Shown here one piece after another: positions 4,430 to 32,760 of a stretch of 41,482 nucleotides of DNA. A program made the translations under genes and the position numbers. Within the stretch, counting starts at the first letter, position 1. Each line of letters opens with the position of its first letter. Where the stretch lies: positions 1 to 41,482 of the forward strand of contig JANYDH010000025.1 of NCBI GenBank assembly GCA_025359865.1, written 5' to 3'. The notes beneath the pieces are model-generated. The model ran no database searches, was not told where the DNA came from, and was given only the letters and a program-made list of their open reading frames with translations. Source of the stretch: Actinomycetes bacterium. GTDB taxonomy: Bacteria; Actinomycetota; Acidimicrobiia; Acidimicrobiales; Ilumatobacteraceae.

Positions 4430-5527
4430 TCAGCGTTCGACCGGGCCACGAGCGGCCAGGTAGCGCTTCGTGAACTGGATCACTTCATCGTCTTTCGGGC
4501 TGAGCACTCCATGCTCGAACGCCTTTGACGACACACCGAGATGTACCCGTTCGCACACCACGTTGTCTTGTGCGGCGATCAACTCGCTGAAGTCGACGAT
4601 CTGCGACGGATTGAACCCTGGCAGGTCGATGACCTCGGGCGCGAACATGTACTCCATCGTCATCGTCGTGTGATGCGGACCCTTCGGGAACAGCGTCGTC
4701 ACGATCGCGCTGGTACCGGTGACATCGATGAACATGTTCGGGAACACGGTGCCCCCGTAGTAGCTGGTGGTGTCGATACCGGAGACGCCGGGCAGCAACG
4801 GCAGGTCGGACGTACCCGAGAAGCTGAAGCTGTTGCCGCCATTGGCCAGGTTGGCGCCACCGTCGTCGCGACTGTGGTCAAGGACCCAACCACTACGGAA
4901 GAGCGGCACCACCTCGACGAGCTCGGGATGTACCCGGGTGCAATGGAGGCACTCCTGATAGTTCTCGACCACGATCTTCCAGTTCGCGGCGACCTCACAC
5001 GACGTACGCACCGCCACCTTGAGTTTGCCGAACTGGTACCGCTCGAGCTGTAGCAGTTCGGTCGCGTTGGTGCTCATCCATTGGTCGAAGGCCGGCGGCT
5101 GTTTGGCGAGGCTCACGAAGATGAACCCCTGCCAGACCTGCACGTGGTGCTTCCACAGCGACAGCGCCGACTTGTCGAGATCGTCGTCGTCAAGATGTGG
5201 TGTGGCCAAGAGTCGCCCATCGAGGGCATACGTCCAGGCGTGATACGGGCACATGAGCGAACCCTGAGTGCTCTCGCTGTGCGCGTCACACAGGCGAGCA
5301 CCCCGGTGTCGACAAACATTCGCGTGTGCATGGACGGTGTCGTCCAGATCGCGTGCGAGCAGCACGCTCTCACCGGCGATGTCGACCACCATCCGGTTGC
5401 CTCGGGCAAGTCGGTCGGCCCGGCCAGCCATGAACCAACCACCGTGAAACAGCTTGTTGCGCTCGACTTCGTATACCTGCTGTGAGATGTAGTCGAAGCT
5501 TGACAATGTGTGGGCAGTATTCGGCAT
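4430..5527 (-). CDS. Rieske-type aromatic-ring-hydroxylating/quaternary-amine oxygenase, alpha subunit
   Basis: A 365-residue oxygenase. The Rieske 2Fe-2S site is C72-x-H74 (CRHRG) and C93-x2-H96 (CPYHAW). The mononuclear iron site is H195 and H200 in ENYQECLHCTRVHPEL, with a carboxylate expected near the later QDNVVCERVHLG segment. This ENYxECxHCxxxHPEL form is typical of the branch that includes glycine betaine, stachydrine and carnitine oxygenases, as well as aromatic oxygenases. Given the carnitine/betaine genes nearby, N-demethylation or cleavage of a quaternary amine is a reasonable inference but is not shown. No ferredoxin or reductase partner lies in the window. The start ATG (5525-5527) faces the aminotransferase across about 80 bases. 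Confidence 0.83.
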   Translation of the reverse strand: MPNTAHTLSSFDYISQQVYEVERNKLFHGGWFMAGRADRLARGNRMVVDIAGESVLLARDLDDTVHAHANVCRHRGARLCDAHSESTQGSLMCPYHAWTYALDGRLLATPHLDDDDLDKSALSLWKHHVQVWQGFIFVSLAKQPPAFDQWMSTNATELLQLERYQFGKLKVAVRTSCEVAANWKIVVENYQECLHCTRVHPELVEVVPLFRSGWVLDHSRDDGGANLANGGNSFSFSGTSDLPLLPGVSGIDTTSYYGGTVFPNMFIDVTGTSAIVTTLFPKGPHHTTMTMEYMFAPEVIDLPGFNPSQIVDFSELIAAQDNVVCERVHLGVSSKAFEHGVLSPKDDEVIQFTKRYLAARGPVER

Positions 5528-5606
5528 GCCTGCGCTCCTATCCCTGGACGACCTCAGCCTACTGGAGACTGAACGACCGATCAGACAACTGAGCTACCAT
5601 CGCCAC
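5528..5606. promoter_or_regulatory. Divergent promoter region, Rieske oxygenase / aminotransferase
   Basis: A 79-base gap between two outward-facing genes of a probable catabolic module. An open frame extends the aminotransferase upstream through this gap. I prefer the start at 5607 because alignment with class III aminotransferases begins well after it and the extension would overlap the Rieske start. No clear operator was recognised. Confidence 0.4.
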
Positions 5607-7010
5607 ATGGGGCACGCCAACAGCTCAACGCTCGACGACCTGGTTCGCCGCGAAGAGGTCGTCTTCCTGGCACGGATGACCAAGTCCACCGAGCTGTGGC
5701 GACGCGCACAACAGTCGATGCCCGGTGGCGTCACGTCCAGCTGGGCCAATTCACGACCGGTCCCGGTGTGGGTCAGCCATGGAGTCGGCGGCCACGTCTG
5801 GGACGCCGACGGGACCGAGTACATCGACATGCACGGTGGCTACGGCGTCAACGTGGTCGGGCACGCCAACCCTGCGATCGTCGATGCGGTACGCCAGCGT
5901 GTCGGGCTGGGCACCCACTTTGCCCAGCCGACCGACGATGCGATCGTGGTTGCCGAGGCGTTGGCGATCCGGTTCGGCCTGCCGCTGTGGCGGTTCACGA
6001 ACTCCGGTACAGAAGCCACGATGGACGCGATGCATCTAATGCGTGCCATCTCCGGCAGGCCGTTGATCATCAAGATCGAGGGCACCTACCATGGCCACCA
6101 CGACGCGACGATGGTGTCGATCTTCCGGTCGGCTGACCAACTCGGGCCCGAAGACGAGCCGTACCGAGTACCCGGCCCTGGGGTTCCTCAGGCCATGGCC
6201 GATCTGCTCCGGATCGTCCCGTACAACGACCTTCCCGCCCTCGAGCGGGTGCTGCAGCAACATCGCGGCCAGGTGGCCGGGATGATCCTGGAACCGATGC
6301 TGATGAACGCTGGCATCATCCCGCCAGCACCCGGCTATCTGCAGGGTGTCCGCGATCTCACCCGGCAGCACGGCGCGTTACTCGCGTTCGACGAAGTGAA
6401 GACGGGCATGGTCGTCGATTGGGGCGGTGCGACGCGACTGTTCGGCATCACGCCCGACATCATCTGCCTGGCGAAGGCACTCGGTGGTGGCCTTCCCTGT
6501 GGTGCGATCGGCGGCACTGCGGAGGTGATGGCCGCCATTGCAGACGGCCGGTACGACCAGATCGGCACGTTCAACGGCAACCCGCTCACCATGGCCGCTG
6601 CTCGCGCCACGCTGACAGAAGTGCTCACTCCCGACGCGTACATCGCAGCAGAGTTACTCGGCCGCAAGATGTTGCAGGGCTCGATCGATGCGCTCATCGC
6701 CAACGACCAGCCGTGTTACGGCGCTGTGTTCGGATTTAAGGGTTCGGTGGTGTTCCACGACCGACCGGCCACCAATTATCGAGAGTTTCTCGCGATCGAT
6801 GCTGCCGTCAGCCACTGCCACTTCCTCGTGCAACACAACGGTGGCGTGTTCTTGCCACCGTGGGGCAAGAGCGAATCGTGGACGCTGTGCGTTGCCCACT
6901 CCGATGCCGACGGCGAACGATACGTTGCCAACGTGACCCGGCTCGGACAAGAACTGACCTGCGTCACCCAACGTTCCTCCGACATCTTCACGAACGGCGT
7001 GTTCTCATGA
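5607..7010 (+). CDS. Class III aminotransferase, glutamate-1-semialdehyde aminomutase-like
   Basis: A 467-residue PLP enzyme of fold type I. It shows the GSA-aminomutase pattern: PGGVTSSWANSRPVPVW near the N-terminus, GTEYIDMHGGYGVNVVGHANP, the PLP phosphate site NSGTEATMDAM, IKIEGTYHGHHD, the cofactor Asp in LLAFDEVKTGM, and the catalytic Lys in LAKALGGGLP near residue 290. True HemL proteins sit with haem genes; this one is divergent from a Rieske oxygenase and coupled to a dioxygenase. It is therefore more likely a catabolic transaminase or aminomutase acting on an amine or beta-amino acid. Its stop overlaps the next start (ATGA). The substrate is unknown. Confidence 0.85.
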   Translation: MGHANSSTLDDLVRREEVVFLARMTKSTELWRRAQQSMPGGVTSSWANSRPVPVWVSHGVGGHVWDADGTEYIDMHGGYGVNVVGHANPAIVDAVRQRVGLGTHFAQPTDDAIVVAEALAIRFGLPLWRFTNSGTEATMDAMHLMRAISGRPLIIKIEGTYHGHHDATMVSIFRSADQLGPEDEPYRVPGPGVPQAMADLLRIVPYNDLPALERVLQQHRGQVAGMILEPMLMNAGIIPPAPGYLQGVRDLTRQHGALLAFDEVKTGMVVDWGGATRLFGITPDIICLAKALGGGLPCGAIGGTAEVMAAIADGRYDQIGTFNGNPLTMAAARATLTEVLTPDAYIAAELLGRKMLQGSIDALIANDQPCYGAVFGFKGSVVFHDRPATNYREFLAIDAAVSHCHFLVQHNGGVFLPPWGKSESWTLCVAHSDADGERYVANVTRLGQELTCVTQRSSDIFTNGVFS

Positions 7011-7864
7011 ACGCGACGTTGCAGCAGTTCTCGCGCAGCGACGGCCCGGGGTCTGTGCTCGATGCGCTCGAAGTCGACGGAGGCGTGATCGTGCATGATC
7101 TGGTGCCGCCGGCCACGTTGGCCCAGTTCCGGGAGGACATGAACCGGCACGCATCGGGCCACCGCGTCGGGACCGCTGCAGACGATCCTTCAATACAGTC
7201 GTTCTGGGGTGCAACGACGAAACGGTTCACCCGTCTCGCGGCGCGCAGCCGAGCGTTCGTCGACATTCTGACCGACCCGTTCTACCTGTCCGTGGCCGAC
7301 AAAGTCTTGCTTCCACGTGGAGGCGCCTACTGGATGAACACGGGCCAGATGATGATCATCGGGCCCGGCGAGAAGAGCCAGATCTTGCATCGTGATGCCG
7401 ACAACTGGCCGACGATGAATCGTCCGGGCGGGTTCGAGGTCACGCTCAGTTGCATGTTCGCGATCTCCGACTTCACCGCCGAGGCCGGTGCCACGCGCGT
7501 AGCACCTGGGAGCCATCGCTGGGACGACTACCAACGCCGCGCGACCCCCGACGAGATGACCCAAGCCGTGATGCCAGCCGGCAGCGGGATGATCTACACC
7601 GGCCGGGTACTACACGGCGCCGGTGCCAACACCACGACCGACGAGTGGCGCTACGGCATGCATCTATCATACGTGCTCGGTTGGCTCACTCCGGAAGAGG
7701 CCGGCCCCCTCGGCACACCGTGGGAGGTGGTCAAGGACCTGCCCGAGCTGGCCCAACGACTGCTCGGCTGGCGCTGCTACAGCACCCAGAACAACAACGC
7801 CAGACTGTGGACCGTCGACTACGAGGATGTACCCGTAGGGCTGGAACTCGTCGACGACTCGTGA
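7007..7864 (+). CDS. Phytanoyl-CoA dioxygenase (PhyH) family Fe(II)/2-oxoglutarate oxygenase
   Basis: A 285-residue double-stranded beta-helix oxygenase. The metal ligands are visible as H128-x-D130 (LHRDADNW) and a distal His near 203 (RVLHGAGAN). An Arg in the following EWRYGMHLSY is a candidate 2-oxoglutarate contact. The family hydroxylates unactivated carbons with 2-oxoglutarate and oxygen; bacterial members include ectoine hydroxylase and many tailoring enzymes. The ATG at 7007 overlaps the aminotransferase stop by 4 bases, so the two are translationally coupled and probably act on the same compound. The gene ends inside a dispersed palindrome that may serve as its terminator. Confidence 0.85.
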   Translation: MNATLQQFSRSDGPGSVLDALEVDGGVIVHDLVPPATLAQFREDMNRHASGHRVGTAADDPSIQSFWGATTKRFTRLAARSRAFVDILTDPFYLSVADKVLLPRGGAYWMNTGQMMIIGPGEKSQILHRDADNWPTMNRPGGFEVTLSCMFAISDFTAEAGATRVAPGSHRWDDYQRRATPDEMTQAVMPAGSGMIYTGRVLHGAGANTTTDEWRYGMHLSYVLGWLTPEEAGPLGTPWEVVKDLPELAQRLLGWRCYSTQNNNARLWTVDYEDVPVGLELVDDS

Positions 7865-10588: not shown

Positions 10589-11371
10589 TCAGTTGCCCCT
10601 CCAAATAGGATCACGTTTCTCCGCGTACGCTGCATTCCCTTCCGCGGCGTCGTCGGAATCGATCGCGCGGCGGTAGCTCTCGAACCCCTTGATCGACTGC
10701 ATCGCCTCAACCTCGTTCATCTGCGCGGTGCGGCGGCCGATGTCGAGCACTGCGGCCACACTCAACGGTGCCGATTTCATCACCTGCACGGCGAGTTGGC
10801 GTGCGGCCGGCATCAGCTCCTCGGCAGCAACGACCCGATTGACGAGGCCCCATCGGGCAGCTTCCGGGGCGCCCATCCGCCTGCCGGCGAGTAGAAGTTC
10901 GCGGGCGATGTGCGGCGGCACCAGGCGCGGCAGTTTCACGCTCGCGGCATCGGCCAGAATGCCAAGGGCGGCCTCGGGGAGGAAGAACTGCGCGTGTTCC
11001 GCTGCCACGATCAGGTCGGCGGCGAGCGCAATCTCGAACCCGCCGCCGACCGCCATTCCGTTGACGGCGGCGATCACCGGCTTCGAGCGATTCGGCAGAT
11101 CGGGGAACCCGCCGAAGCCACCTACGCCATAATCGGCGTCGAACGATTCGCCTTCACCGGCCGCGCCGAGATCCCAACCGGCGCTAAAGAACCGCTCACC
11201 GGCACCCGTGATGATCACGACCCGCACTGACGGATCGCGCTCGAACCCGGCGAACGTGTCACCAAGTGCGCAACTGGTACCGGCATCAAGGGCGTTCGCC
11301 TTCGGGCGGTCGATGGTGACCACCGCGATGCCACCGTCGATCTCGACGCGGAACCCCTGTTGCTCGGTCAT
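10589..11371 (-). CDS. caiD: Crotonobetainyl-CoA hydratase (CaiD-like crotonase)
   Basis: A 260-residue crotonase with unusual stretch-by-stretch likeness to enterobacterial CaiD as I remember it: RPKANALDAGTS, ITGAGERFFSAGWDL, the DADYGVGGFGG insert, KPVIAAVNGMAVGGGFE, GRRMGAPEAARWGLVNRVV and EKRDPIWRG at the C-terminus. Both crotonase glutamates are kept (GGGFE and FLPEAALG). CaiD adds water to crotonobetainyl-CoA to give L-carnitinyl-CoA. The start ATG overlaps the acyl-CoA synthetase stop by 4 bases. The operon partners (synthetase, dehydrogenase, carnitine-dehydrogenase-like fusion) support a gamma-butyrobetaine/carnitine role rather than general beta-oxidation. A generic enoyl-CoA hydratase is the alternative. 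Confidence 0.82.
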   Translation of the reverse strand: MTEQQGFRVEIDGGIAVVTIDRPKANALDAGTSCALGDTFAGFERDPSVRVVIITGAGERFFSAGWDLGAAGEGESFDADYGVGGFGGFPDLPNRSKPVIAAVNGMAVGGGFEIALAADLIVAAEHAQFFLPEAALGILADAASVKLPRLVPPHIARELLLAGRRMGAPEAARWGLVNRVVAAEELMPAARQLAVQVMKSAPLSVAAVLDIGRRTAQMNEVEAMQSIKGFESYRRAIDSDDAAEGNAAYAEKRDPIWRGN

Positions 11372-13428
11372 TGTTGAACCCCCTCAGTGATGGTGTCGAC
11401 CTCGACGATCAGCAATGCGTCGACGGCGACAGCACCGCTGCGACCGACGAGCACCGGGTTCAACTCCACCTCGACCACGTCGGTACCGACGACGCTCCCG
11501 GTGAGGCGGACCACGAGCGCGACCAGCGCGTCGATGTCGGCGGGTGGGCGGCCACGAAACCCATGAAGCAGTGGGGCGCTACGAAGCATGCCCAACGCAG
11601 AGCGAACATCGTCTGGCGTGACGGGCGCGAGTAGGTGAACGACATCGCCCCACAACTCAGTCGTCACGCCACCAAAGCCGAGCGAGACCAACCAGCCGAT
11701 CGGCGGGTCACGGCGCACTGCGACGAGCACTTCGGCGACCACGTCGGTGACCGTCGATTCGACCAGATATCCGTGGTCCGTAGCCGGCATCACGGCAAGA
11801 GCGTTGGCCAGCGCAGTCGCGTCGCGGAGACCGACGTACACGCCACCCTGCTCGCTCTTGTGCGCCATCCCCAGCGCCTTCAGCGTGACCGGATAGCCAA
11901 CTTCGACAGCGGCTGCGAGAACGTCGGCGACGGCGGGAACGGTTCCGGCGCTGGCGATCACACGACCCTCTGGGACGCCGACCCCGAGTCGTCTGAGCAT
12001 GTCCTTCGCCGCCGCCTCGTCGACCAGACGCGTGGCAACCGGGGCGACCACAGGGGCGTGAGGAGGATCGCATCGGCGCCCGATGGTGACCGCCACCTCG
12101 AGCGCAACGAGGCCCTCCGCCAAGCCCATCAACGGGGCCAACCCGCGGCCAGCAATGTGATTACGAAGTGGTTCGTTGAGACACTCGGTCATCGTGGCCA
12201 CGACGACCCCACGACGGCCGGTCGCAGCGGCCGCGTCAGCGAGCGCATCGGCGGCGACGTACCACGAGCCCGCGTCGTTGTGTGTTCCGGTCGGAGCGTC
12301 GAGCACCAGCATCGTGGCATCCTGCGGACCATCCATCACCGCGCCGAACGTGGCCGTCATCGCCGCGGAGTCGCCCCACATGAACGTGTGATAGTCGAAC
12401 GGGTTGCTGACAGAAACGAGTTCAGACAGCGTGGCCTCGATCCGTGCCTGGTGACCATCGTCGAACGGTTCGAACGTGAGTGCCGAACCGTCGCTGCGGT
12501 CGGCCACGAGCGATGCCTCGCCGCCTGAACAGCTGAGCGACACCAGCCGCGACCCGCTGAGACGTCCACCCATATCGAGCAGTTTCAGCGTCTCGAGTAG
12601 CTCGGCTGGAGTTCGGACCGTGGCAACGCCATATCGCGCGAACAGCGCGTCGTAAGCGGCGGCCCTCCCCGCCATGGATCCGGTGTGCGACGCGGCGATC
12701 CGCGCACCCGCTGCCGATCGGCCGGTTTGCAGCGCGACGATCGGAATGCCCTGCGCGTTGGCACGGCGGGCAACGGTGGCAAACCGCTGCGGGTCTCGAA
12801 CCGCCTCGAGGAACAGCCCGATCGCGGTGATGCGGTGATCGTCGAGCAGCGCCTCGATCGCGTCCTCTGTTCCGAGGTTCGCTTGGTTGCCCACGGTGAC
12901 CATCATCGCCAACCGCAGACCGCGCTGCTGGAACGTGAGGTTGCACGCCACGTTTCCGCTCTGCGACACAATGGCAACACCACGCTCGAACGATCCGCAC
13001 CCGTGCTCATCGGGCCACAACGCCACACGGTCGAACGTGTTGACGTAGCCATAGCAATTCGGCCCGAAAAACGGCAGATCACCTGCCGCGTCGAGCAGAT
13101 CACGTTGTAGGTCGGTCTCGCCCGATTCCGCGAAGCCCGAGCCATAACACACCGCACCGCCGGCGCGGAGTGAACGCAATGTGCTCATCGCAAGAACGGT
13201 GGCGTGACGGTTGACACCCAAGAACACCGCGTCGGGTGTATCGGGTAGCGCGTCGAGCGATGGCAGACAGACAACTCCGGCCATCTCCTGACGGGTCGGA
13301 TGCACCGGCCAGATCGGGCCATCGAACCCCAGGTTCAGGCACTGGCGGACCACCCGTTCAGCGGCGGCGCCGCCGACCACGGCAATCGACTTTGGGGCGA
13401 GGAGACGTCGAAGATCAGCCACGCTCAT
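11368..13428 (-). CDS. ADP-forming acyl-CoA synthetase (acetate--CoA ligase family, alpha-beta fusion)
   Basis: A 686-residue fused synthetase that makes an acyl-CoA from acid, CoA and ATP through a phospho-His. The CoA-binding Rossmann domain starts at LLAPKSIAVVGG. The ligase domain has VSQSGNVACNLT and the phospho-His segment AASHTGSMAGR. The C-terminal ATP-grasp part includes GYPVTLKALGMAHKSEQGGV and VEVELNPVLVG. The start at 13428 was chosen because MSVADLRRLLAPKSIAVVGG is the usual N-terminus and its ATG overlaps the dehydrogenase stop by 4 bases; the open frame extends further upstream. In this operon it probably activates gamma-butyrobetaine or carnitine, a step done by an AMP-forming ligase (CaiC) or a CoA-transferase (CaiB) in enterobacteria. 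Substrate assignment is inference. Confidence 0.83.
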   Translation of the reverse strand: MSVADLRRLLAPKSIAVVGGAAAERVVRQCLNLGFDGPIWPVHPTRQEMAGVVCLPSLDALPDTPDAVFLGVNRHATVLAMSTLRSLRAGGAVCYGSGFAESGETDLQRDLLDAAGDLPFFGPNCYGYVNTFDRVALWPDEHGCGSFERGVAIVSQSGNVACNLTFQQRGLRLAMMVTVGNQANLGTEDAIEALLDDHRITAIGLFLEAVRDPQRFATVARRANAQGIPIVALQTGRSAAGARIAASHTGSMAGRAAAYDALFARYGVATVRTPAELLETLKLLDMGGRLSGSRLVSLSCSGGEASLVADRSDGSALTFEPFDDGHQARIEATLSELVSVSNPFDYHTFMWGDSAAMTATFGAVMDGPQDATMLVLDAPTGTHNDAGSWYVAADALADAAAATGRRGVVVATMTECLNEPLRNHIAGRGLAPLMGLAEGLVALEVAVTIGRRCDPPHAPVVAPVATRLVDEAAAKDMLRRLGVGVPEGRVIASAGTVPAVADVLAAAVEVGYPVTLKALGMAHKSEQGGVYVGLRDATALANALAVMPATDHGYLVESTVTDVVAEVLVAVRRDPPIGWLVSLGFGGVTTELWGDVVHLLAPVTPDDVRSALGMLRSAPLLHGFRGRPPADIDALVALVVRLTGSVVGTDVVEVELNPVLVGRSGAVAVDALLIVEVDTITEGVQQ

Positions 13429-14585
13429 CCGCCGAAGGGGCGCAGCATCGACCGCGAGATGATGTGACGTTGGATCTCGCTGGTTCCATCCCAGATGCGG
13501 TCGACGCGGGTGTCTCGCCACATCCGTTCGAGCGGAAGTTCATCCATCAGCCCCATCCCCCCGAGGATCTGAATTGCCTCGTCGGTGACGAATTGGCACA
13601 TCTCACTGGAGTACACCTTTGCCATCGCGATCTCGGGATCGGTCACGGTCCCTCTGGCATCTTTCCAGGCCGCCCGCAGCGTGAGCAGTTCAGCCGCATC
13701 GAGGCGGGTGGCCATGTCGGCCAGCTTGAACGACACACCCTGGAACTTGCCGATCTGCTGGCCGAACTGCTGGCGGGTGGCAGCCCACTCGGTGGCAATC
13801 CTGAGCGCACGACGGGCGCGGCCGACACACACCGCTGCCACCTGCAGCCGGGTGGAGCCGAGCCACTCGTTGACCGCATCGAAACCATGGTGCTCTTCAC
13901 CGAGGATCTTCGACGCCGGTACCCGACAGTCGTCGAAGTTGATGATCTTGTTGTGGTAGCCACGGTTCGACACGCAGTTGTAGCCGGCGACCACCTCGCA
14001 TCCCGGTGTGTCGAAGTCGACCAGGAACCCGGTGATCAACTTCTTCCGACCACGGCTCGTCTGCTCCTCGCCACTGGCCGCATACAAGATGACGTAGTCG
14101 GCCATGTCGGCATGGCTGATGAAGTGCTTCGTACCGTTGATCACGTAGTCGTCGCCGTCGCGCACGGCGCTGCATTTCATGCCGCGCACATCACTGCCGG
14201 CATCGGGCTCGCTCATCGCCATGCAGTCCACCCGCTCACCGCTGATGGTGGGAAGCAGGTATTCGTCGATCTGACTGCCGGTACAGGCTCGCAAGATGTT
14301 GGATGGCCGGGCGACGATGTAGTGCAGCGCATACGAGGCCGCACCGAATTCACGGTCGACCAAGGTGACGCCGAGCGAGTCGAGTCCACCGCCTCCCAAC
14401 TCGGCCGGCATGTTGGCCGCATACAGACCGGCGTCGAGCGAGCGCCGTTTGATTTGCTGCACGAGTTCGGGAGGCACCTCACCCAACTTCTCCACAACCG
14501 CTTCATGTGGGAAGAACTCGTTCTCGGTGAAGGCACGCGCGGTGTCGACGACCATCTGGTGTTCGTCGGACAGTTCGAAATCCAT
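13425..14585 (-). CDS. Acyl-CoA dehydrogenase with Asp at the usual catalytic Glu position
   Basis: A 386-residue FAD flavoprotein that introduces a 2,3 double bond in an acyl-CoA and passes electrons to ETF. It shows the MDFELSDEHQ start, MSEPDAGSDVRGMKCSA, NGTKHFISHADMADYVI, and AIQILGGMGLMDELPLERMWRD before the C-terminal helix. The catalytic base of medium-chain-type enzymes lies in a YEGT motif. Here the segment is IWDGTSEIQRH, with Asp at about residue 366; some branches use Asp there. In context the likely substrate is gamma-butyrobetainyl-CoA, giving crotonobetainyl-CoA for the CaiD-like enzyme. It sits 30 bases after the fusion gene and overlaps the synthetase. Confidence 0.87.
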   Translation of the reverse strand: MDFELSDEHQMVVDTARAFTENEFFPHEAVVEKLGEVPPELVQQIKRRSLDAGLYAANMPAELGGGGLDSLGVTLVDREFGAASYALHYIVARPSNILRACTGSQIDEYLLPTISGERVDCMAMSEPDAGSDVRGMKCSAVRDGDDYVINGTKHFISHADMADYVILYAASGEEQTSRGRKKLITGFLVDFDTPGCEVVAGYNCVSNRGYHNKIINFDDCRVPASKILGEEHHGFDAVNEWLGSTRLQVAAVCVGRARRALRIATEWAATRQQFGQQIGKFQGVSFKLADMATRLDAAELLTLRAAWKDARGTVTDPEIAMAKVYSSEMCQFVTDEAIQILGGMGLMDELPLERMWRDTRVDRIWDGTSEIQRHIISRSMLRPFGG

Positions 14586-14615
14586 CGTGTTCTCCTGGGT
14601 ATCGGTGGGTGCAGA

Positions 14616-15719
14616 TCAGCGGGTGGCGAACGGTAGCCGCATGACGTTGCCGACTTGAGTGGGGATCACGAGCGGGGCATGAGCATCGGCAATGGAAGCC
14701 AACGCAGCCGCAACATCTGGACGGATCGCTGTCGAGCGCCCAGCGTTCATATCGACGTGTAACAGCATCTGCTCAGCGGTGCACACCAGCGCACCGCTGT
14801 CGCCGTGATACATCATGTGGATCAGGTGAAGGCGTTTGGAATCGAGGCCGAGCACCTGGGTGGTGATGCTGATCGGTTCGTGAACGTCGACCTCGAGCAG
14901 GTACACGATGTGAGTTTCGACCGTGTAGAAGCTGTACCCCATGGCCCGGTAGGCCTCGTCGTCACCGATGTAGCGAAACAGTGCGTCGCTGGCCCACCCA
15001 GCCGCAGTCAGGTAGGCGGCCTCGGTCATATGGCCGTTGTAGTCAACCCAGTCGGGTTCGACCTGGGTGGCGTAGAGCGCGAGCGGCGTCTCAGGACTGT
15101 CACCCGGCCGCCATGGCTGTACGGCGGTAGCAGCCAGTCGTCGTGCCTCGTGTCGAGCGATCGCTGCTCCGGCACCCCTGCCCGATGGTCGCAATGCACG
15201 CATGACGGCGATCAGTGCGTCGGCATCGGGCCCGCGCTCGCCGCCGGTTAGCTGCACCAACCCAGCGCCGAACTGCCAGCGTTGATCCGGCGGTATCTCG
15301 GCGCCTACCGGCCACATGCCGATCGAGTCGTAGAACTCGGTGAGTTCAGCGGCCTGTGGTCCTGAAACCTCGACGATTGCGATCAGATGCACCGGCGAGC
15401 AGCCGTGTGCGGTCGCGTCGGTGGCGACCAAACCTGAGTATCCCGCTGGGACTGCACCTGCTACGGCCTGGATCAACCGCGCCTCGGTCAACTCGTCGTG
15501 GTTGCTGACGACACGCAACCGCGAGCGGGCTGCACCCGGGAACAGCCCCAACCGCTGCGCTTCCGGCCACAACCCATCCACCGCCGAAGCGAGCGTGGAA
15601 TCATCGACGAGCACGTCGAGACCGGATGCCAAGAAGCGCGTCGCCCACTGCGCAGCCAATGCCCCGGACCCGGTCACGGCGACAACCGCAGCGTGGGCCA
15701 CGGTGGCGTACGATCTCAT
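14616..15719 (-). CDS. Shortened carnitine 3-dehydrogenase domain fused to betainyl-CoA-type thioesterase
   Basis: A 367-residue, two-part protein. Residues about 211-367 are a hotdog thioesterase (QVEPDWVDYNGHMTEAAY, then HIVYLLEVDVHEPISI). In several bacteria this domain is fused behind L-carnitine dehydrogenase and acts on betainyl-CoA. Residues 1-200 keep only pieces of that dehydrogenase: a Rossmann-like start (AVVAVTGSGALAAQWATRFL), WPEAQRLGLFPGA, LIAIVEVSG through FYDSIGMWPV, and the linker GAGAAIARHEARRLA. The C-terminal catalytic helical domain between the last two pieces is gone, and the Gly-rich loop is altered. The protein is over 100 residues shorter than the fused enzymes I recall. 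The dehydrogenase half is probably inactive while the thioesterase is probably active. It is the first gene of the operon and is divergent from a TetR regulator. Confidence 0.75.
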   Translation of the reverse strand: MRSYATVAHAAVVAVTGSGALAAQWATRFLASGLDVLVDDSTLASAVDGLWPEAQRLGLFPGAARSRLRVVSNHDELTEARLIQAVAGAVPAGYSGLVATDATAHGCSPVHLIAIVEVSGPQAAELTEFYDSIGMWPVGAEIPPDQRWQFGAGLVQLTGGERGPDADALIAVMRALRPSGRGAGAAIARHEARRLAATAVQPWRPGDSPETPLALYATQVEPDWVDYNGHMTEAAYLTAAGWASDALFRYIGDDEAYRAMGYSFYTVETHIVYLLEVDVHEPISITTQVLGLDSKRLHLIHMMYHGDSGALVCTAEQMLLHVDMNAGRSTAIRPDVAAALASIADAHAPLVIPTQVGNVMRLPFATR

Positions 15720-15754
15720 AAGCTAAATATACATTCAGGATTGGATTCACACCG
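15720..15754. promoter_or_regulatory. 35-base AT-rich divergent control region, fusion operon / tetR
   Basis: Only 35 bases separate the two start codons. The stretch is strikingly AT-rich for this genome (TAAATATACATTCAGGATT). Both promoters must overlap neighbouring coding sequence or be leaderless. A TetR regulator binding here would control both directions; I could not define a clean inverted repeat. Confidence 0.5.
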
Positions 15755-16393
15755 ATGCCCCGACCACGACTCGACCATGTTCGCAAGGCTCAGATTCTCT
15801 CGGCGGCAGCTTCTGTACTGTCCGAACGGGGTTACGCCAATACCCGTGTCGTCGACATCGCGCGTGAAGCCGGAACCAGCCCCGCAGCGATTCTGTACTG
15901 GTTCGAGGGCAAGGATGGACTGCTGGCCCATGCGCTCGTGATGCGCGAGCAAGAGTTCCACGATCAGTTCACGGTCAAGGCCGATTCGAAGTCGTCCGCG
16001 TCCGATCGGTTGCGGATACTGATCGAGGCGATGCTGCACCACTACGACTGGAAGTTGTGGATGGAATTGTGCGTGCTTGCGCTCCGCGACGAAGCCGCGG
16101 CAGCCGAGCGCGACCGGATGGACCGCCGATGGAGGGCCGCGTTGCGAGCAGTCATCCGCGATGGCCAGCGACTGGGCGAGTTCACCGACAGCGACCCGGA
16201 CGACACGATGTTCGTGCTCGCTGCGTTACTCGACGGCCTTGCGCCGCTGTTGGCCCTGAAGGCTCGCGGCGTGACTCGCGACCGGGTGGAACGGGTATGG
16301 CTCGCCGAGGCAGCGAGGCTGTTGGGTCAGGGCTTCGACGATCGCCCCCTGAAGCGCAGCCTCAGCAAGTCACCGGAACGAGTCGGGTCGTGA
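15755..16393 (+). CDS. TetR-family transcriptional regulator
   Basis: A 212-residue regulator. The N-terminal HTH (residues about 10-57: ILSAAASVLSERGYANTRVV, DIAREAGTSPAAILYWFEGK) is a standard TetR domain with the YWFEGKDGLL form common in BetI-like members. The C-terminal ligand domain includes WMELCVLALRD. It is divergent from the fusion operon and overlaps the SDR gene by 4 bases. It therefore most likely represses the quaternary-amine operon and is relieved by a CoA ester or betaine intermediate. The ligand is inferred from context only. Confidence 0.88.
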   Translation: MPRPRLDHVRKAQILSAAASVLSERGYANTRVVDIAREAGTSPAAILYWFEGKDGLLAHALVMREQEFHDQFTVKADSKSSASDRLRILIEAMLHHYDWKLWMELCVLALRDEAAAAERDRMDRRWRAALRAVIRDGQRLGEFTDSDPDDTMFVLAALLDGLAPLLALKARGVTRDRVERVWLAEAARLLGQGFDDRPLKRSLSKSPERVGS

Positions 16394-17190
16394 GCGACGA
16401 CTTTGCGGCACCTTCCGCCTCGAACGCCTCGGCAAGCCCGCTCGCTGGCCCGCTCACAGGCTTGCGGGCATTGGTCACCGGTGGCGGCGCCGGGATCGGG
16501 CAGGCGATTGCCGCCACGTTGCGCCGGGACGGTGCAACGGTGCTGGTGACCGATGTCGATGCCTCTACCGCTGCGGACGTCGTGGCCGATGTCTCACGTA
16601 CCGCCGACGTCGACCGCCTGTTCGTGGCCGTGCGCGACCAGATGGGTGGACTCGATCTGCTGGTCAACAATGTTGGCATCGCCGGTCCCACCGCCGTCGT
16701 GCAAGACATGGACCCCGACGAGTTCGATCACTGTGTCCAGGTCATCCTCGGCAGCACGTTCCGGTGTACCAGAGCGGCGGTCGAGCTGTTGCGTGAGCGG
16801 CCCGGATCGATCGTCAACATCTCGTCAACGGCTGGCATCTTCGGCTATGCGTTGCGCTCTCCATACGTTGCCGCCAAGTGGGGTGTGATCGGCCTCACCA
16901 AGACCTGGGCGATGGAGTTGGGCGAGGCGGGCATCCGCGTCAACGCGATCTGTCCCGGCTCGGTCGGTGGCCCGCGCATGGACGGCGTGATCGAACGTGA
17001 AGCCGCCACCCGCGGCATCGACGAGGCCTACGTTCGCCGCGCCTACCACGAGCAGGTGTCGATGAGGTCGTTCATCGACGCGAGCGACATCGGCGAGATG
17101 GTGGCGTTCCTCGCCTCGCCCGCGGCGCGGTTCATCTCGGGCCAGGTGATCTCTGTGGATGGCCACACCGAAACCCTCAGCACCCGCTGA
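16390..17190 (+). CDS. Short-chain dehydrogenase/reductase (FabG-like)
   Basis: A 266-residue NAD(P)-dependent oxidoreductase. The cofactor loop is TGGGAGIGQAIA, with D in VTDVDAS after strand 2, suggesting NAD preference. NNVGIAG, the catalytic Ser in NISSTAGIFG, and Y-x3-K in SPYVAAKWG follow. The GTG start at 16390 overlaps the tetR stop (GTGA), so the two are coupled. As the local dehydrogenase domain of the fusion protein is crippled, this SDR is a good candidate to oxidise the 3-hydroxy group of carnitine or carnitinyl-CoA. That is inference; SDR substrate cannot be read from sequence. Confidence 0.87.
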   Translation: MSDDFAAPSASNASASPLAGPLTGLRALVTGGGAGIGQAIAATLRRDGATVLVTDVDASTAADVVADVSRTADVDRLFVAVRDQMGGLDLLVNNVGIAGPTAVVQDMDPDEFDHCVQVILGSTFRCTRAAVELLRERPGSIVNISSTAGIFGYALRSPYVAAKWGVIGLTKTWAMELGEAGIRVNAICPGSVGGPRMDGVIEREAATRGIDEAYVRRAYHEQVSMRSFIDASDIGEMVAFLASPAARFISGQVISVDGHTETLSTR

Positions 17191-17284: not shown

Positions 17285-17779
17285 TCAGGCGTGGGGCACC
17301 GCGGCGGCGCGCTGGACGGCGGCCACGATTCGGGTGTAGCCGGTGCACCGGCATAGGTTGCCGGACAGTCCGATCCGAACTTGCTCCTCGGACGGCGATG
17401 GATTGTCGGCCAGTAACGCCATCGCCGACATGATCATCCCAGGGGTACAGAATCCACACTGCACACCGCCTTCATCCAGCAGCGCTTGTTGCAGTGGGTG
17501 CAGGTCGTCGCCGGTCATCACGCCCTCGATGGTGGTGATCGCGCGGCCCTGCGCTTGCACGGCGAGATAGCTGCACGAGTTCACCGGGCGACCGTCGAGC
17601 AACACCATGCACGCGCCGCATTCGCAGTCGTCGCAGCCTTCCTTGGTTCCGGTGAGGCCGACCTCGCCACGGATCACACTGAGCAGGTTGCGGTCCTGTT
17701 CGATGTGTACCGGATAGGCGATGCCGTTGACGTCGAGAGTGACGTCGAACGTGCCACTGGCAGTGGTCGAGTCGGTCAC
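17285..17779 (-). CDS. Molybdenum hydroxylase small subunit, two 2Fe-2S clusters (CoxS/XdhC-type)
   Basis: A 164-residue protein with both expected clusters. The plant-type ferredoxin site is GCDDCECGACMVLLDGRPVN with a later Cys in NSCSY; the helical site is QCGFCTPG plus GNLCRCTGY. The usual first motif is GCxxGxCGAC; here the Gly is replaced by an additional Cys, which may mark a subfamily. It passes electrons from the molybdenum site to FAD. The GTG start overlaps the FAD subunit stop by 4 bases. It is the last gene of the potDBC-hydroxylase run. Confidence 0.92.
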   Translation of the reverse strand: MTDSTTASGTFDVTLDVNGIAYPVHIEQDRNLLSVIRGEVGLTGTKEGCDDCECGACMVLLDGRPVNSCSYLAVQAQGRAITTIEGVMTGDDLHPLQQALLDEGGVQCGFCTPGMIMSAMALLADNPSPSEEQVRIGLSGNLCRCTGYTRIVAAVQRAAAVPHA

Positions 17780-18672
17780 GATGCGGCTCCGATTCCGATG
17801 GCGCGGTTCAGGGGGATGGCAACGATGTCGCCGGCGGCCCGACGTGCGGCGGCTTCTACGGCTCGGCGGGCCATCACGCCGACTGTGTGACGCCGATACT
17901 GAGCCGATGCCCGCACGTCACTGATCGGAGTGGCCTGTCCCGCCGCCAAGACACCAACGCGCACGGCGGCCTCTGGCACGTTGGCCCCAGCCAGCGAATG
18001 GAGGCCGTCGACCATGATGATGGTCGGCGCTACCGCGGTGAGCGCAACCGACGCCGACACGACGAAACCGTCTTCATCGAGCACCACGCAGGCGGCTGCG
18101 CCGACGACTGCGATCTCCATTGCACGGCGATATTCGAGCCGGAGGTATGCACTGCCCGAACGAACCAGCGGAGTGGGAATGTGGACCATCACACACAGTT
18201 CGTCGGGCGCAGCGCTGGTGCGACCCGGCCCGGTCCACAACTCGGACAACGGCACGCGACGCGAACCGCGCATCGACTGCAACTCAACCTGTGCACCGAG
18301 CACGAGCAGCGGTGCCCCGGTGTCCATCGCCGGCGAAGCATTCATGATGTTGCCGCCGATCGTGCCCAGATTGCGAGTGCTCGGCGACCCGACCAGTGCG
18401 CTCGCGTCGGCGAGCCCGGAATACGCCGATGCAAGCAACGGGTGAGATTCGAGCACGCTGTGGGACACGCCGGACCCGATGGTGACACCATCGGCAGTGT
18501 CGTGAACGACGAGTAACGCTTCGATGCGGTCGATCGCGACCAAGTGCTGTGGCAGTGCAGCTTTGCCGTGGCGCGCTCCGACCACAAGGTCGGTGCCTCC
18601 GGCGATCGGCCTAGCCCCGGAGGCCATCGCGGCCACGGCCTCGGCGATTGTCGTGGCGATAACGAAGCTCAC
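17776..18672 (-). CDS. Molybdenum hydroxylase FAD-binding medium subunit (CoxM-type)
   Basis: A 298-residue subunit. The FAD-binding motifs RPIAGGTDLVVGAR and TIGGNIMNASPAMD are intact. The C-terminal CO-dehydrogenase flavoprotein domain follows (ASVALTAVAPTI). The GTG start at 18672 (VSFVIATTIAEAV) was chosen because it overlaps the large-subunit stop as GTGA. The medium subunit transfers electrons from the iron-sulfur clusters to NAD, quinone or another acceptor. Gene order large-medium-small is a legitimate variant of the CO-dehydrogenase/xanthine-dehydrogenase family. Confidence 0.92.
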   Translation of the reverse strand: MSFVIATTIAEAVAAMASGARPIAGGTDLVVGARHGKAALPQHLVAIDRIEALLVVHDTADGVTIGSGVSHSVLESHPLLASAYSGLADASALVGSPSTRNLGTIGGNIMNASPAMDTGAPLLVLGAQVELQSMRGSRRVPLSELWTGPGRTSAAPDELCVMVHIPTPLVRSGSAYLRLEYRRAMEIAVVGAAACVVLDEDGFVVSASVALTAVAPTIIMVDGLHSLAGANVPEAAVRVGVLAAGQATPISDVRASAQYRRHTVGVMARRAVEAAARRAAGDIVAIPLNRAIGIGAAS

Positions 18673-20966
18673 GATGCGTCCCCCTGGATCGTGTTCCACA
18701 CACGCTCCGCCGTCATCGGCAACTGCCGTACTGGTCTGCCGATCAGCTTGGCGAGGGCATTCGAGATGGCCGCCGCAGTGGCGATGTTGGGGGCCTCGGC
18801 CAGGCCTTTGGCACCACGCGGCCCTGCGTCGGGCGTGAAGATCTCTACGAACTGCACCAAGATCGGTGGCGCATCGGCGCAGGTCTGCAACTTGTACTCC
18901 AGCAGCGCGGCGTTTCGCTGGCGGGCCTGGTCGTCGTAGGTGGTGCCCTCGCTGAGCGCTTGGCCGATACCCATCATGACGGCGCCCTCGACCTGCCCAT
19001 GAGCGCCGATCGGATTGATGATAATGCCCGAATCATGAGCGGCACTCACATGCAGCACCCGGGCCACACCGGTGTCGCGGTCGAGCTTCACGCGGACCGC
19101 GTGGCACGAGAACTGCGGGGCCACGAAGGCCGCCATACCCAGGTCGCCGACACAGCTTGACCCAGCCAGCGGTGGGGCCTCGGCCGGGGTGCTCGAACCG
19201 TGACCGATCAACAGTTGCCCTCCGGCGGCAATCCCGGCCAGTTCGACCAACGACACCGTCGTCGCGGGCGTACCAGCGACGTAGGCATGGCCGTCGGCGA
19301 GCACGATGTCGGCCTCGGCGGCCTCCAAGTGATCGGCTGCCAACTTCTTCAATTGCTCGGCAACCTGCCCTGCGGCGGCGATCACGGCCCTGCCGTTGTT
19401 GAGTAACGTCTGCGAGCCGGTGGCCCCCATGTCATAGGGCGCGACTGCGGTGTCCTGGTAGACGAGCTCGAAGTCTTCCGGTTTCATGCCCAGCTCATCG
19501 GCGGCCAGGTCGCGCAGCGTCATCACCGAGCCGGTGCCGCACTCTTGGGCACCGGTGATGATCTGTCCGGCGCCGTCGCCGTCGATCTTGATGTACGCGC
19601 CCGACGGGACCGAGAAGCTGGGCCACCACCCGATTGCCACCCCGATTGCCTCGTCGTCGGGCAACGGTTGCCCGTAGCCAGCCCCGCCAGCAGCTAGATC
19701 GATGCACTGCTGTAGTCCGATCTCGCCATAGGTTTGCCCGCTCGGACCGACGGCACCGGTGTCGACCGCGTTGCGGCGACGAAACTCGACCGGGTCGATA
19801 CCGACCGCTGCAGCTACCTCATCGGTGTGCGACTCCAACGCCCAACACGCCTGCGGTGCAGTTGGGGCACGAACCGAGCCGGACGGCTGGTGGTTTGTGT
19901 AGACGAGATGCGCCTCCACCTGCACATTAGGAATCCGGTACGGCCCGGCCGTGTGCATGGCTGCGAGTTGGCTGAAGAAGGCCGCATCGGCCGTGTAGGC
20001 ACCGTTGTCCATCGCTAGCCAGGCCCGGCGGGCCGTGATGGTTCCATCATCGAGCACACCGGTTTCGATGTTGAACACGATGCTCTCACGGCGTCGGTCG
20101 GGGGCGATGAACTCCTCGCGCCGAGTGAACACCAACCGAACGGGTCGTTTCGCGACCCGGGCGAGCGCGGCGATGTGCGCCTCGTAGTGGAAGCCGCACT
20201 TGCCGCCGAACCCACCACCGAGGTGGGGGACGATGATCCGCACCCGGTTGGTGGGCAGTTGCAGCGTCTCGCACACGCCGGCGCGGGCATCGAACGGCAC
20301 CTGGGTAGTGGTCCAGATCGTGACCTTGTTGCCCTCCCACTGGGCAACCACGGCGCGTGGCTCGATCGGCACCGCATGACACCCGTCGGCCACGTATCGG
20401 CTCTCGATGATGTGGTCGGCGGCCGCCATGCCTGCGCCGACATCACCCTTGGTGATCGACGCAAACGACGCGTCGTTGCGGTCGCGCACCAACGCATCGG
20501 CTGCGCCGTACGACTGCCAATCCGGATGCACCAACGCAGATTCAACAGACAGCGCCGCCTCGATGTCGTTGATGACGGGTAGTGGTTCGTACTCGACAAC
20601 GATCGCATCGACCGCGCGCTGGGCGACCACCGCATTGACCGCAGCGACTGCGGCGACGATCTCACCCTCGAAGCGCACCACGTCACGCGCGAACAGCGTG
20701 CGATCTTGCACGAATGGGCCGAAGCGCACATCGGGCACGTCATCGGCGGTGAGCACCGCGAACACCCCAGGCATCGCTCTCGCGGCTGTGACGTCGAGCC
20801 GAACAATACGGGCGTGGCCGATGTTCGCGTAACGGAACTTGGCGGCAAGCACTCCGGTGAGGGAGAGATCGGCGGTATAGCGCCCGCTACCGGTGACCTT
20901 GTCGGGGCCGTCGGCGCGCACGAATCGCGGTGGGCTAGTTGTGATGGCGGTCGTTGTGGCGGTCAT
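18669..20966 (-). CDS. Molybdenum hydroxylase large (Moco) subunit, xanthine dehydrogenase family
   Basis: A 765-residue catalytic subunit carrying the molybdopterin cofactor. It has the N-terminal hammerhead domain (VTGSGRYTADLSLTGVLAAK) and Moco-binding segments HLGGGFGGKCGFHYEAHIAA, GAQECGTGS and GATGSQTLLNN. The catalytic Glu is in GAKGLAEAPN near the C-terminus. The CO-dehydrogenase active-site Cys loop (AYRCSFR) is not present, so this is not a CO dehydrogenase. The family hydroxylates N-heterocycles or aldehydes with water. The ATG at 20966 is preferred to an upstream in-frame start because GGAGGAC lies about 9 bases before it (20975-20981 complement). It follows potC by 59 bases on the same strand; its substrate is probably what the transporter imports. 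Confidence 0.92.
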   Translation of the reverse strand: MTATTTAITTSPPRFVRADGPDKVTGSGRYTADLSLTGVLAAKFRYANIGHARIVRLDVTAARAMPGVFAVLTADDVPDVRFGPFVQDRTLFARDVVRFEGEIVAAVAAVNAVVAQRAVDAIVVEYEPLPVINDIEAALSVESALVHPDWQSYGAADALVRDRNDASFASITKGDVGAGMAAADHIIESRYVADGCHAVPIEPRAVVAQWEGNKVTIWTTTQVPFDARAGVCETLQLPTNRVRIIVPHLGGGFGGKCGFHYEAHIAALARVAKRPVRLVFTRREEFIAPDRRRESIVFNIETGVLDDGTITARRAWLAMDNGAYTADAAFFSQLAAMHTAGPYRIPNVQVEAHLVYTNHQPSGSVRAPTAPQACWALESHTDEVAAAVGIDPVEFRRRNAVDTGAVGPSGQTYGEIGLQQCIDLAAGGAGYGQPLPDDEAIGVAIGWWPSFSVPSGAYIKIDGDGAGQIITGAQECGTGSVMTLRDLAADELGMKPEDFELVYQDTAVAPYDMGATGSQTLLNNGRAVIAAAGQVAEQLKKLAADHLEAAEADIVLADGHAYVAGTPATTVSLVELAGIAAGGQLLIGHGSSTPAEAPPLAGSSCVGDLGMAAFVAPQFSCHAVRVKLDRDTGVARVLHVSAAHDSGIIINPIGAHGQVEGAVMMGIGQALSEGTTYDDQARQRNAALLEYKLQTCADAPPILVQFVEIFTPDAGPRGAKGLAEAPNIATAAAISNALAKLIGRPVRQLPMTAERVWNTIQGDAS

Positions 20967-21025
20967 GGCGTGATGTCCTCCGGGGCCACAATGTGTCACA
21001 TCTCGAGGCGGCGCGCGTACACCGG

Positions 21026-21931
21026 TCAGATGCTCATGCCGGTCAGTCCCACGGCGGCTCCATCGGTGCCGCTACTGCGCCTGTTCATCATCCGCATCGC
21101 GAGTGCCGCCAAGCCGACCGCCACCAGGGTGACGACCAGCATCACGGTGGCCAGCGCGTTGAGTGCTGGAGTGGAACCTGCTCGGGCACCGGAGTAGATC
21201 TTGATCGGCACCGTCTCGGTCGACGCCCCGGTTGACAGGAATGACGAGATCACGAAATCGTCGACCGACGTGGCGAACACCGTCATCAGGCTGGCGAAGA
21301 TCGCTGGGCCGAGCAGCGGCAACAGGACCAGGCGGATGGCTTGAAACCGGCTGGCACCAAGGTCGCGCGCTGCTTCTTCGTACTGCGTACCGATTGCCGC
21401 GAGGCGACCGCGGATGATCACCACTACGAACGACAAGGTGAACGTGACGTGACCGAGCAGTTGCGTGGTGATTCCGCCCGGCAGGCCCTTGTACACCTGG
21501 GTGAACACGAGGAACAGGGCGACGCCGAACACGATCTCGGGTGTGACGATCGGCAACAACATCAGCCCATTTGCTGCTCCCGACACCTTGCCGCGCCACC
21601 GATGCAATCCGATAGCCATCGCGACGCCCACCGGCGTGGCGATCAGCATGGTCAGGCATGCAAGGGTGAGCGTGTTCGAGAGGGCGGTTTGCAGACTGTC
21701 GTCGTGCCAGACCGACAATGTTGGGTCGGTCCAGTACCACCGGAACGACATCGGTTGGAATGCCGACCGGCTTTTGCCCGAGTTGAGCGAGATCCGCACG
21801 GCCACCAGCACCGGCAACAGTGACCACAGCACGTACAGCCAAGTGACAACGGCAAGTCCGTGCGCCCTGCCTCGGCTACCCCGACGGCTACTACGACGGC
21901 TGCTAGCACGATCGCTGCGGAGCAGGCTCAC
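21026..21931 (-). CDS. potC: Spermidine/putrescine-type ABC permease, PotC-like
   Basis: A 301-residue inner-membrane permease with about six membrane spans. The cytoplasmic coupling loop EEAARDLGASRFQAIRLVLL (EAA motif) docks on the ATPase. The tail carries charged residues and a short Ser/Gly end. The GTG start overlaps the potB stop by 4 bases. It pairs with potB to form the channel. The matching ATPase is probably the PotA-like protein at 3359, as none is encoded beside it. The substrate class is polyamine or another cationic amine. Confidence 0.9.
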   Translation of the reverse strand: MSLLRSDRASSRRSSRRGSRGRAHGLAVVTWLYVLWSLLPVLVAVRISLNSGKSRSAFQPMSFRWYWTDPTLSVWHDDSLQTALSNTLTLACLTMLIATPVGVAMAIGLHRWRGKVSGAANGLMLLPIVTPEIVFGVALFLVFTQVYKGLPGGITTQLLGHVTFTLSFVVVIIRGRLAAIGTQYEEAARDLGASRFQAIRLVLLPLLGPAIFASLMTVFATSVDDFVISSFLSTGASTETVPIKIYSGARAGSTPALNALATVMLVVTLVAVGLAALAMRMMNRRSSGTDGAAVGLTGMSI

Positions 21932-22845: not shown

Positions 22846-22849
22846 GGCG

Positions 22850-24018: not shown

Positions 24019-24030
24019 GACGTCCCCCAA

Positions 24031-27601: not shown

Positions 27602-27616
27602 TCGAGACGAGATTCC

Positions 27617-28828: not shown

Positions 28829-28853
28829 CAGGCGCTGCCAGGCAGCACCTTGT

Positions 28854-29642: not shown

Positions 29643-29733
29643 CCACCCAGAGCTCCTGCCGAGTGCAGAGCCGAGTCGGAGGTTAGCGATCATCAGCAAA
29701 GCACCACCACAACACGACAGCCTTCGAGCTGGT

Positions 29734-31324: not shown

Positions 31325-31325
31325 C

Positions 31326-32738: not shown

Positions 32739-32740
32739 TT

Positions 32741-32760
32741 CGGTGTAGCTCGGTGTAGCT
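32741..32760 (+). repeat. 10-base direct tandem repeat upstream of pilT
   Basis: CGGTGTAGCT occurs twice in direct succession, followed by a partial third CGG. It begins 2 bases after the PilX-like stop, within the 112-base gap before pilT. It could be an operator pair or a chance duplication. Confidence 0.5.

Follow-up and report, generated by a model that had tools for sequence, protein, structure and literature searches.

An actinobacterial operon predicted to convert gamma-butyrobetaine to carnitine through an ADP-forming acyl-CoA synthetase, with the remains of a carnitine dehydrogenase-thioesterase fusion

Whether an actinobacterium could convert gamma-butyrobetaine to glycine betaine by means of one compact operon is the question raised by positions 10589-17190 of contig JANYDH010000025.1 (C186; assembly GCA_025359865.1, Ilumatobacteraceae, class Acidimicrobiia), whose full 41,482 nucleotides are called the window below. 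The minus strand of this stretch carries, in this order, genes of a thioesterase, an acyl-CoA dehydrogenase (ACAD), an ADP-forming acyl-CoA synthetase and a CaiD-like hydratase, divergent from a tetR-SDR pair on the plus strand. The original prediction described a four-gene overlapping operon, and the order and coordinates of the genes were confirmed (Table 1): the ACAD and synthetase genes and the synthetase and hydratase genes overlap by 4 bp, as do the TetR and SDR genes, and a gap of 30 bp separates the thioesterase gene from that of the ACAD. The listed start of the synthetase frame (13521) is too early, and the ATG at 13426-13428 forms an ATGA overlap with the stop codon of the ACAD gene; the SDR gene starts with GTG and overlaps the TetR stop codon as GTGA. 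The best explanation of the locus, with a probability of about 0.78, is that the operon represents the gamma-butyrobetaine half of an aerobic pathway leading from gamma-butyrobetaine to glycine betaine; gene content and order, protein grouping, domain loss and co-occurrence are what the sequences support. The operon had been taken for a module ending at betaine. Activation, desaturation and hydration of a betaine via CoA are still the likeliest reactions, but by itself the operon most likely ends at carnitine.

The synthetase has the architecture expected of the NDP-forming acyl-CoA synthetases (ACD), with CoA_binding_2, Succ_CoA_lig and ATP-grasp_5 domains (Pfam) and the phosphohistidine position (H248), an architecture in agreement with its prediction as ADP-forming. 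Its closest solved relative is DddX (PDB 7cm9, 209.8 bits). DddX is an ATP-dependent dimethylsulphoniopropionate (DMSP) lyase of the same superfamily, in which Trp391 and Phe435 were assigned cation-pi contacts from a docked model and mutants, and Glu432 was assigned as the base (PMC8163506). In a pairwise alignment counted by hand, these three residues correspond to His347, Ser388 and Ala386 of the window enzyme, and since alanine occupies the position of Glu432, the lyase base would be absent from it. Thus the two enzymes are alike in superfamily, phosphohistidine position and an onium-type acid as actual or predicted substrate, and differ in the base and in the Trp391 position, which is taken by His347 with Tyr346 adjoining and Trp351 near. 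His248, Tyr346 and Trp351 are invariant in 95 of 95 module synthetases, and residue 389 is tryptophan in 83 of them; among control ACDs, which are lower-scoring homologs of the class, Tyr346 occurs in 0/11 and Trp351 in 4/11 (a filter of at least 500 residues dropped 5 of 16 control and 5 of 99 module loci). This signature fits a cationic substrate, without being proof of one.

The hydratase is 54.8% identical to Escherichia coli CaiD and 33% identical to PaaF. The phylogenetic check set beforehand, whether it would group inside or outside the CaiD clade, placed it inside, and its description as strongly CaiD-like holds: in a tree of 66 rows it belongs to a 35-row clade (SH-aLRT 99) with E. 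coli CaiD and 33 of the 92 module hydratases, which leaves out PaaF, PaaG and 29 rows of own-genome paralogs (from 33 paralogs, two loci giving the same gene; 28 rows are different). This tree was built by a quick method without bootstrap, and many branches among the paralogs are long. Hydration of crotonobetainyl-CoA is the likeliest predicted activity of the protein.

These genes do not occur together by accident. When GTDB contigs were scanned with an alignment of the synthetase alone, at least 384 loci came up; the best 80 (L057-L136) were kept, and ACAD, synthetase and hydratase genes stand in the same order on one strand in 69 of these 80, an association far from chance. An ACAD gene is present in 76 of the best loci, a CaiD-like gene in 78, both in 74, and a BKACE gene in 50; ACAD, hydratase, carnitine dehydrogenase (CDH) and BKACE are all found in 46, some stretches ending at contig ends. 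Loci scored as having CDH only had been judged from one BLAST piece and were rechecked with separate domain queries. Neither CDH nor BKACE lies in the stretch of 28 loci, and 17 of these 28 genomes hold a carnitine dehydrogenase-thioesterase fusion (CDH-TE) above the cut-off elsewhere (L125, whose CDH-TE is cut by a contig end, is outside this set). The full set was seen in Acidimicrobiia and in alpha- and betaproteobacteria; gammaproteobacterial loci show the ACAD-synthetase-hydratase part, and the stretch of Ruegeria pomeroyi just these three genes. Within the class, the relatives L042-L044, L046, L047 and L051 carry a five-gene operon of BKACE, CDH-TE, ACAD, synthetase and hydratase; in L048 just BKACE and CDH-TE were seen. 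Among 296 genomes of the class, each scored on no more than its 4-5 highest first-look candidates, the module synthetase was found in 27 (26 of them scoring at least 643 bits, with the next group reaching at most 393, plus G056, cut by a contig end), and CDH (E<=1e-60) was present in 26 of these 27 versus 13 of the 269 others (Fisher p 1.5e-26).

The original prediction saw no thiolase or BKACE gene and regarded the cleavage step as missing. The window indeed holds no BKACE, but a search of the rest of the assembly (4.99 Mb, 219 contigs, 96.6% complete, contamination 2.91%) found the genome's one BKACE match on contig C153 (50320-51189, 321 bits) and, directly behind it, the genome's one intact CDH-TE (51230-52690, 676 bits, cut-off 592). 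All five module genes are therefore in the genome, divided between the window and C153 and not contiguous, and with the same two genes inside the operon of relatives the cleavage step is no gap in the pathway. In L038 (G051) and L057 (Acidimicrobiaceae RE-4nov15-40), a C153-like BKACE/CDH-TE pair adjoins the TetR, thioesterase, ACAD, synthetase and hydratase genes. A different in-operon BKACE, about 30% identical to that of C153, occurs in several Acidimicrobiia; the examples in L045 (10797-11735) and L046 (7261-8190), beside CDH-TE, ACAD and synthetase genes, match the 3,5-dioxohexanoate:acetyl-CoA acetone transferase model with 437.7 and 424.8 bits (cut-off 430).

In the proposed pathway, of which the substrates and the direction are predictions, the synthetase would use ATP, via its phosphohistidine, to convert gamma-butyrobetaine to gamma-butyrobetainyl-CoA, the ACAD would form crotonobetainyl-CoA, the CaiD-like enzyme would hydrate it to L-carnitinyl-CoA (the cai chemistry in the oxidative direction), and the window thioesterase would release free L-carnitine. 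The intact carnitine dehydrogenase of C153 would oxidise carnitine to 3-dehydrocarnitine, BKACE would cleave this, using acetyl-CoA, into acetoacetate and betainyl-CoA, from which the thioesterase domain of the C153 CDH-TE would free glycine betaine. If true, the scheme would let actinobacteria and proteobacteria turn gamma-butyrobetaine into glycine betaine aerobically without passing through trimethylamine, a route open to testing, and would suggest a role for a set of ADP-forming synthetases recognisable by a simple Tyr/Trp signature.

A closed beta-oxidation, near to the picture first drawn of this locus, would have the SDR or another dehydrogenase oxidise carnitinyl-CoA as the thioester and a thiolase split the product into acetyl-CoA and betainyl-CoA, the thioesterase then freeing betaine. 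The SDR is the sole intact hydroxy-oxidising candidate in 10589-17190 and is a real associate of the module: it shares a clade with 20 SDRs encoded in module loci (L038 and 19 of the 80 best loci; SH-aLRT 99), outside which fall 20 rows of SDRs from its own genome, and in 14 of the 80 loci the SDR gene has the same strand as the operon and is no more than 4 kb from the ACAD gene. The proposal that it supplies the oxidation step stands in so far as it belongs to the module, but as the carnitine dehydrogenase of the pathway it was rejected as unnecessary, because an intact CDH-TE exists on C153; 13 of the 19 SDR-carrying loci also have CDH in the stretch. PaaJ-like thiolase genes were found in just five of the 80 best loci and not in the window, but 50 of the 80 carry BKACE, an enzyme that uses free 3-oxo acids. 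Thiolytic cleavage is disfavoured, and we give the closed cycle a slim chance. Possibly, and this is a guess, the SDR oxidises another 3-hydroxy betaine, for example D-carnitine.

About equally improbable is that the same chemistry serves another betaine or onium acid, such as 5-trimethylaminovalerate, a DMSP analogue or demethylated gamma-butyrobetaine. The action of DddX on DMSP would agree with this, as would the unexplained Rieske, aminotransferase and PhyH genes flanking the operon and the BKACE of some operons of the class, which best fits the acetone transferase model mentioned above; the CDH-TE of the same genome, above the carnitine 3-dehydrogenase cut-off, and the grouping of the hydratase with CaiD point to a carnitine skeleton, and Ala386 in place of the DddX base also speaks against it. 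A general short-chain acyl-CoA operon for ordinary fatty acids, which the breadth of the ACAD and hydratase superfamilies, the 34 crotonase family matches in the genome and the hydratase score below the CaiD equivalog cut-off might suggest, is very improbable given the grouping with CaiD, the co-occurrence of the module synthetase with carnitine dehydrogenase and the invariant Tyr/Trp pair.

Several points weigh against the gamma-butyrobetaine pathway preferred here. The substrates of all proteins of the locus are predicted ones, and the co-residence of C153 and the window rests on binning, since they are separate contigs of a 219-contig assembly. The hydratase scores 314 bits against the CaiD equivalog NF002936, under the cut-off of 500 (a Rhizobium etli protein annotated as carnitinyl-CoA dehydratase is likewise under it, with 318); the identity of the ACAD to E. 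coli CaiA is low (30.7%), and its best NCBIfam model, also under the cut-off, is acryloyl-CoA reductase; the TetR protein reaches 73 bits with the BetI model, again below the NCBIfam cut-off. In L045 and L049 the operon has no visible CaiD-like gene in the stretch. Eleven of the 28 genomes mentioned above hold no CDH-TE above the cut-off: two have dehydrogenase-only matches at 566-571 bits, five have such matches at 262-369 bits, and four (G300, G304, G305, G322) have nothing above 157 bits. Within the class, 13 of 296 genomes hold CDH but no module synthetase; in G292 the synthetase was found and, instead of CDH, just a thioesterase fragment within an open frame of 114 residues. All trees are quick ones without bootstrap and with many long branches. 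Finally, the C153 stretches contain no copy, within 5 mismatches, of the 20-bp element described below; joint regulation of both halves of the pathway through this element was rejected, as its absence from C153 means that they are not under this one switch.

The first gene of the operon had been read as a carnitine-dehydrogenase-type fusion with a thioesterase, of which the thioesterase stands but a working dehydrogenase does not. The protein matches the CDH-TE family NF005716 in residues 167-360 alone (195 bits) and misses the two-domain cut-off (592) that the C153 protein passes with 676; residues 8-87 give a weak L-carnitine dehydrogenase match (34.8 bits), and no dehydrogenase Pfam domain was found in it at E<=0.001. 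Compared with complete CDH-TE proteins, it shares several deletions with its counterparts in L038 and L057, and the GHPFNP motif, whose histidine we take to be catalytic in carnitine dehydrogenase, reads AHGCSP in the window and AKGCSP in both L038 and L057, so that a complete dehydrogenase domain with the HPFNP motif is lacking. An AlphaFold2 model (14 sequences; mean pLDDT 73, pTM 0.63) has pLDDT values, in blocks of 10 residues, of 77-96 for residues 201-360, 69-88 for residues 11-80 and 40-57 for residues 81-170; its top Foldseek match is 2hlj, a putative thioesterase, and D226, H230 and E233 are invariant in the 14 sequences. The thioesterase thus appears intact and the dehydrogenase part shrunken and apparently dead. 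Among the window, L038 and L057 the remnant is 54-55% identical versus 76-83% for the thioesterase part, and therefore the remnant still looks constrained, though less. The corresponding protein in L039 (G056), L040 (G039), L059, L061 and L063 consists of a thioesterase alone, 171-228 residues long.

A pair of thioesterases was seen in each of 14 loci: seven actinobacterial (L038, L039, L040, L057, L059, L061, L063), five betaproteobacterial (L071, L075, L090, L093, L115; a sixth, L081, is cut) and two gammaproteobacterial (L097, L101), where the second gene lies about 5 kb downstream. In a quick tree of 81 domains, with ACAD-side and CDH-side labels assigned by hand, the two domains of these loci always belong to different groups. 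CDH-side domains form two groups with no ACAD-side member (12 rows, support 98; 33 rows, 97) and ACAD-side domains two groups with no CDH-side member (7 rows, 97; 29 rows, 93), and neither kind is monophyletic (5 and 4 changes). The actinobacterial CDH-side domains, including that of C153, nest with alphaproteobacterial CDH-TE proteins, and the thioesterase domain of the window joins the fused domains found in its class (support just 82). The simplest reading would be that an acquired CDH-TE replaced the resident dehydrogenase and the old thioesterase was kept for carnitinyl-CoA. The order of events we infer runs from full fusion through a trimmed remnant, as in the window, to free thioesterase: the window protein would be what is left of an ancestral CDH-TE encoded in the operon, the dehydrogenase of which was lost as redundant beside the CDH-TE now on C153, and a fusion enzyme would here be seen at an apparent intermediate stage of losing one half. 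Tentatively, and at somewhat less than even odds, we suggest that a dedicated carnitinyl-CoA thioesterase arose from CDH-TE by such stepwise loss of the dehydrogenase after the arrival of a second CDH-TE of alphaproteobacterial type, and that the module is an undescribed oxidative gamma-butyrobetaine pathway of two phyla with its own onium-binding synthetase and SDR.

The tetR gene is found at the same place in L038, L039 and L057. The 35-bp gap between it and the thioesterase gene contains the 20-bp element TAAATATACATTCAGGATTG, identical and at the same position in the window and these three loci, and no second copy occurs in its own genome within 3 mismatches. Its core TAAAT-ATAC-ATTCA is a near inverted repeat, as expected for a TetR-type operator. 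Six shuffled motifs gave 3-16 matches in the loci at up to 5 mismatches, and therefore exact copies alone count. The element is a probable operator or promoter, at which TetR binding, a predicted contact, would probably control both divergent units. In an uncultured Amylibacter (L085, 1160-1179), a copy with 3 mismatches is a perfect inverted repeat, TGAAT-ATAC-ATTCA. A gene of a GlxA-family regulator, presumably the family of CdhR, is present in 38 of the 80 best module loci. CdhR is a known regulator of carnitine catabolism in Pseudomonas aeruginosa (PMC5806209).

Table 1. Features of the operon, the divergent genes and the neighbouring trio in the window
Feature	Positions	Strand	Size and basis
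CaiD-like crotonobetainyl-CoA hydratase, predicted	10589..11371	-	260 aa; PF00378 210.9 bits
NDP(ADP)-forming acyl-CoA synthetase, predicted gamma-butyrobetaine:CoA ligase	11368..13428	-	686 aa
Acyl-CoA dehydrogenase, predicted gamma-butyrobetainyl-CoA dehydrogenase	13425..14585	-	386 aa; Pfam Acyl-CoA_dh N, M and C domains
Thioesterase with carnitine dehydrogenase remnant	14616..15719	-	367 aa; Pfam 4HBT_2 98 bits
Intact hot-dog thioesterase domain, residues 205-360	14640..15107	-	pLDDT, Foldseek, invariant residues
Pseudo-dehydrogenase remnant, residues 1-166	15222..15719	-	alignment with complete CDH-TE proteins
20-bp element, probable operator/promoter	15724..15743		between divergent tetR and thioesterase genes
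TetR-family regulator	15755..16393	+	TetR_N, TetR_C_6 (Pfam)
SDR oxidoreductase, module-associated group	16390..17190	+	266 aa; adh_short_C2 175.5 bits (scanned from 16402)
Rieske oxygenase alpha subunit, class-III aminotransferase, PhyH-type dioxygenase	4430..7864		Pfam/NCBIfam; pathway membership putative

The Rieske oxygenase, class-III aminotransferase and PhyH genes adjoin the module also in L038 (659-4180) and L057. The Rieske protein reaches 192 bits with the GbcA model (cut-off 670), and the trio perhaps feeds or drains the betaine pool. On the other side, a three-subunit molybdenum hydroxylase (CoxS/M/L-like, 17285-20999) lies beside the operon and is also near the module in L038. Genes of an ABC ATPase (3359-4429) and of ABC permeases (21026-22995) flank the catabolic genes on opposite sides. 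In the gene of an ABC solute-binding protein (23020-24030), judged by eye, the frame apparently shifts near residue 255 and the C-terminal part is nonsense, which seems to reflect a sequencing error or a broken gene. Genes resembling those of type IV pili were also recognised by eye at 25835-36559: two secretion ATPases, an inner-membrane protein, a prepilin peptidase and pilin-like proteins. A module copy in another genome (G180; L050, 6061-11086) has no ADP-forming synthetase in the stretch, its ACAD reads as three fragments, and behind the hydratase comes one more thioesterase, a small one.

Among known systems, the caiTABCDE operon of E. coli, which is used reductively, shares with the window a homologous CaiD and a distant relative of the ACAD in CaiA, at the identities given above; it differs in that the window activates the substrate by an ADP-forming synthetase and in the predicted oxidative direction. 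CaiB, CaiC and CaiT gave no match in the window at E<=1e-10, a search that covered the window only, and among the 80 best loci CaiB-like proteins were found in four and a CaiC-like protein in one. Much closer is a five-gene operon on plasmids of R. etli, R. johnstonii and Sulfitobacter sp. W027, annotated in the database records as 3-keto-5-aminohexanoate cleavage protein, carnitine 3-dehydrogenase, acyl-CoA dehydrogenase, acetate-CoA ligase family protein and carnitinyl-CoA dehydratase; the Rhizobium records thus call the key enzyme merely an acetate-CoA ligase family protein. The ACAD, ADP-forming synthetase and CaiD-like genes have the same order there, and BKACE and CDH-TE are present in the window's genome as well. 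The differences are that the latter two lie on another contig, that the in-operon CDH-TE of the window is cut down to a thioesterase, and that the window has a TetR instead of a GlxA-type regulator.

The source study for BcoAB of Sinorhizobium meliloti is reportedly Bazire 2019. BcoAB has been used as an ATP-dependent gamma-butyrobetaine:CoA ligase (PMC8364193), and the S. meliloti CDH-TE SM2011_c01638 was reported to be active on carnitine and on betainyl-CoA, giving betaine (PMC12482172). With such a ligase in print, whether ADP-forming or not, gamma-butyrobetaine CoA chemistry is known in kind, and together with the whole operon annotated in the Rhizobium and Sulfitobacter records this lends no support to the original view that an ADP-forming synthetase in this role was not a known set-up. 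The S. meliloti enzymes resemble those considered here in the ATP- and CoA-dependent activation of gamma-butyrobetaine, predicted for the window, and in a carnitine dehydrogenase that also converts betainyl-CoA; BcoAB bears a two-gene name and the window enzyme is one chain, the likeness being one of described activity. A SAR11 island with CDH, BKACE and a gamma-butyrobetaine dioxygenase represents another route to carnitine (PMC12421898). In R. pomeroyi, the carnitine transporter cntTUVW is encoded by SPO2995-2998 (PMC10130141) and the module synthetase on the megaplasmid, so no link between transporter and module was made; a Variovorax paradoxus paper (PMC6370202) proved, in its available part, to have no bearing on the five-gene module. 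Among the titles and abstract beginnings of the open-access literature searched, no description of the five-gene module was found. Against these systems, the variant in the window is distinctive in its split layout, worn-down fusion, second thioesterase, SDR group, Tyr/Trp synthetase signature and 20-bp element identical in four genomes.

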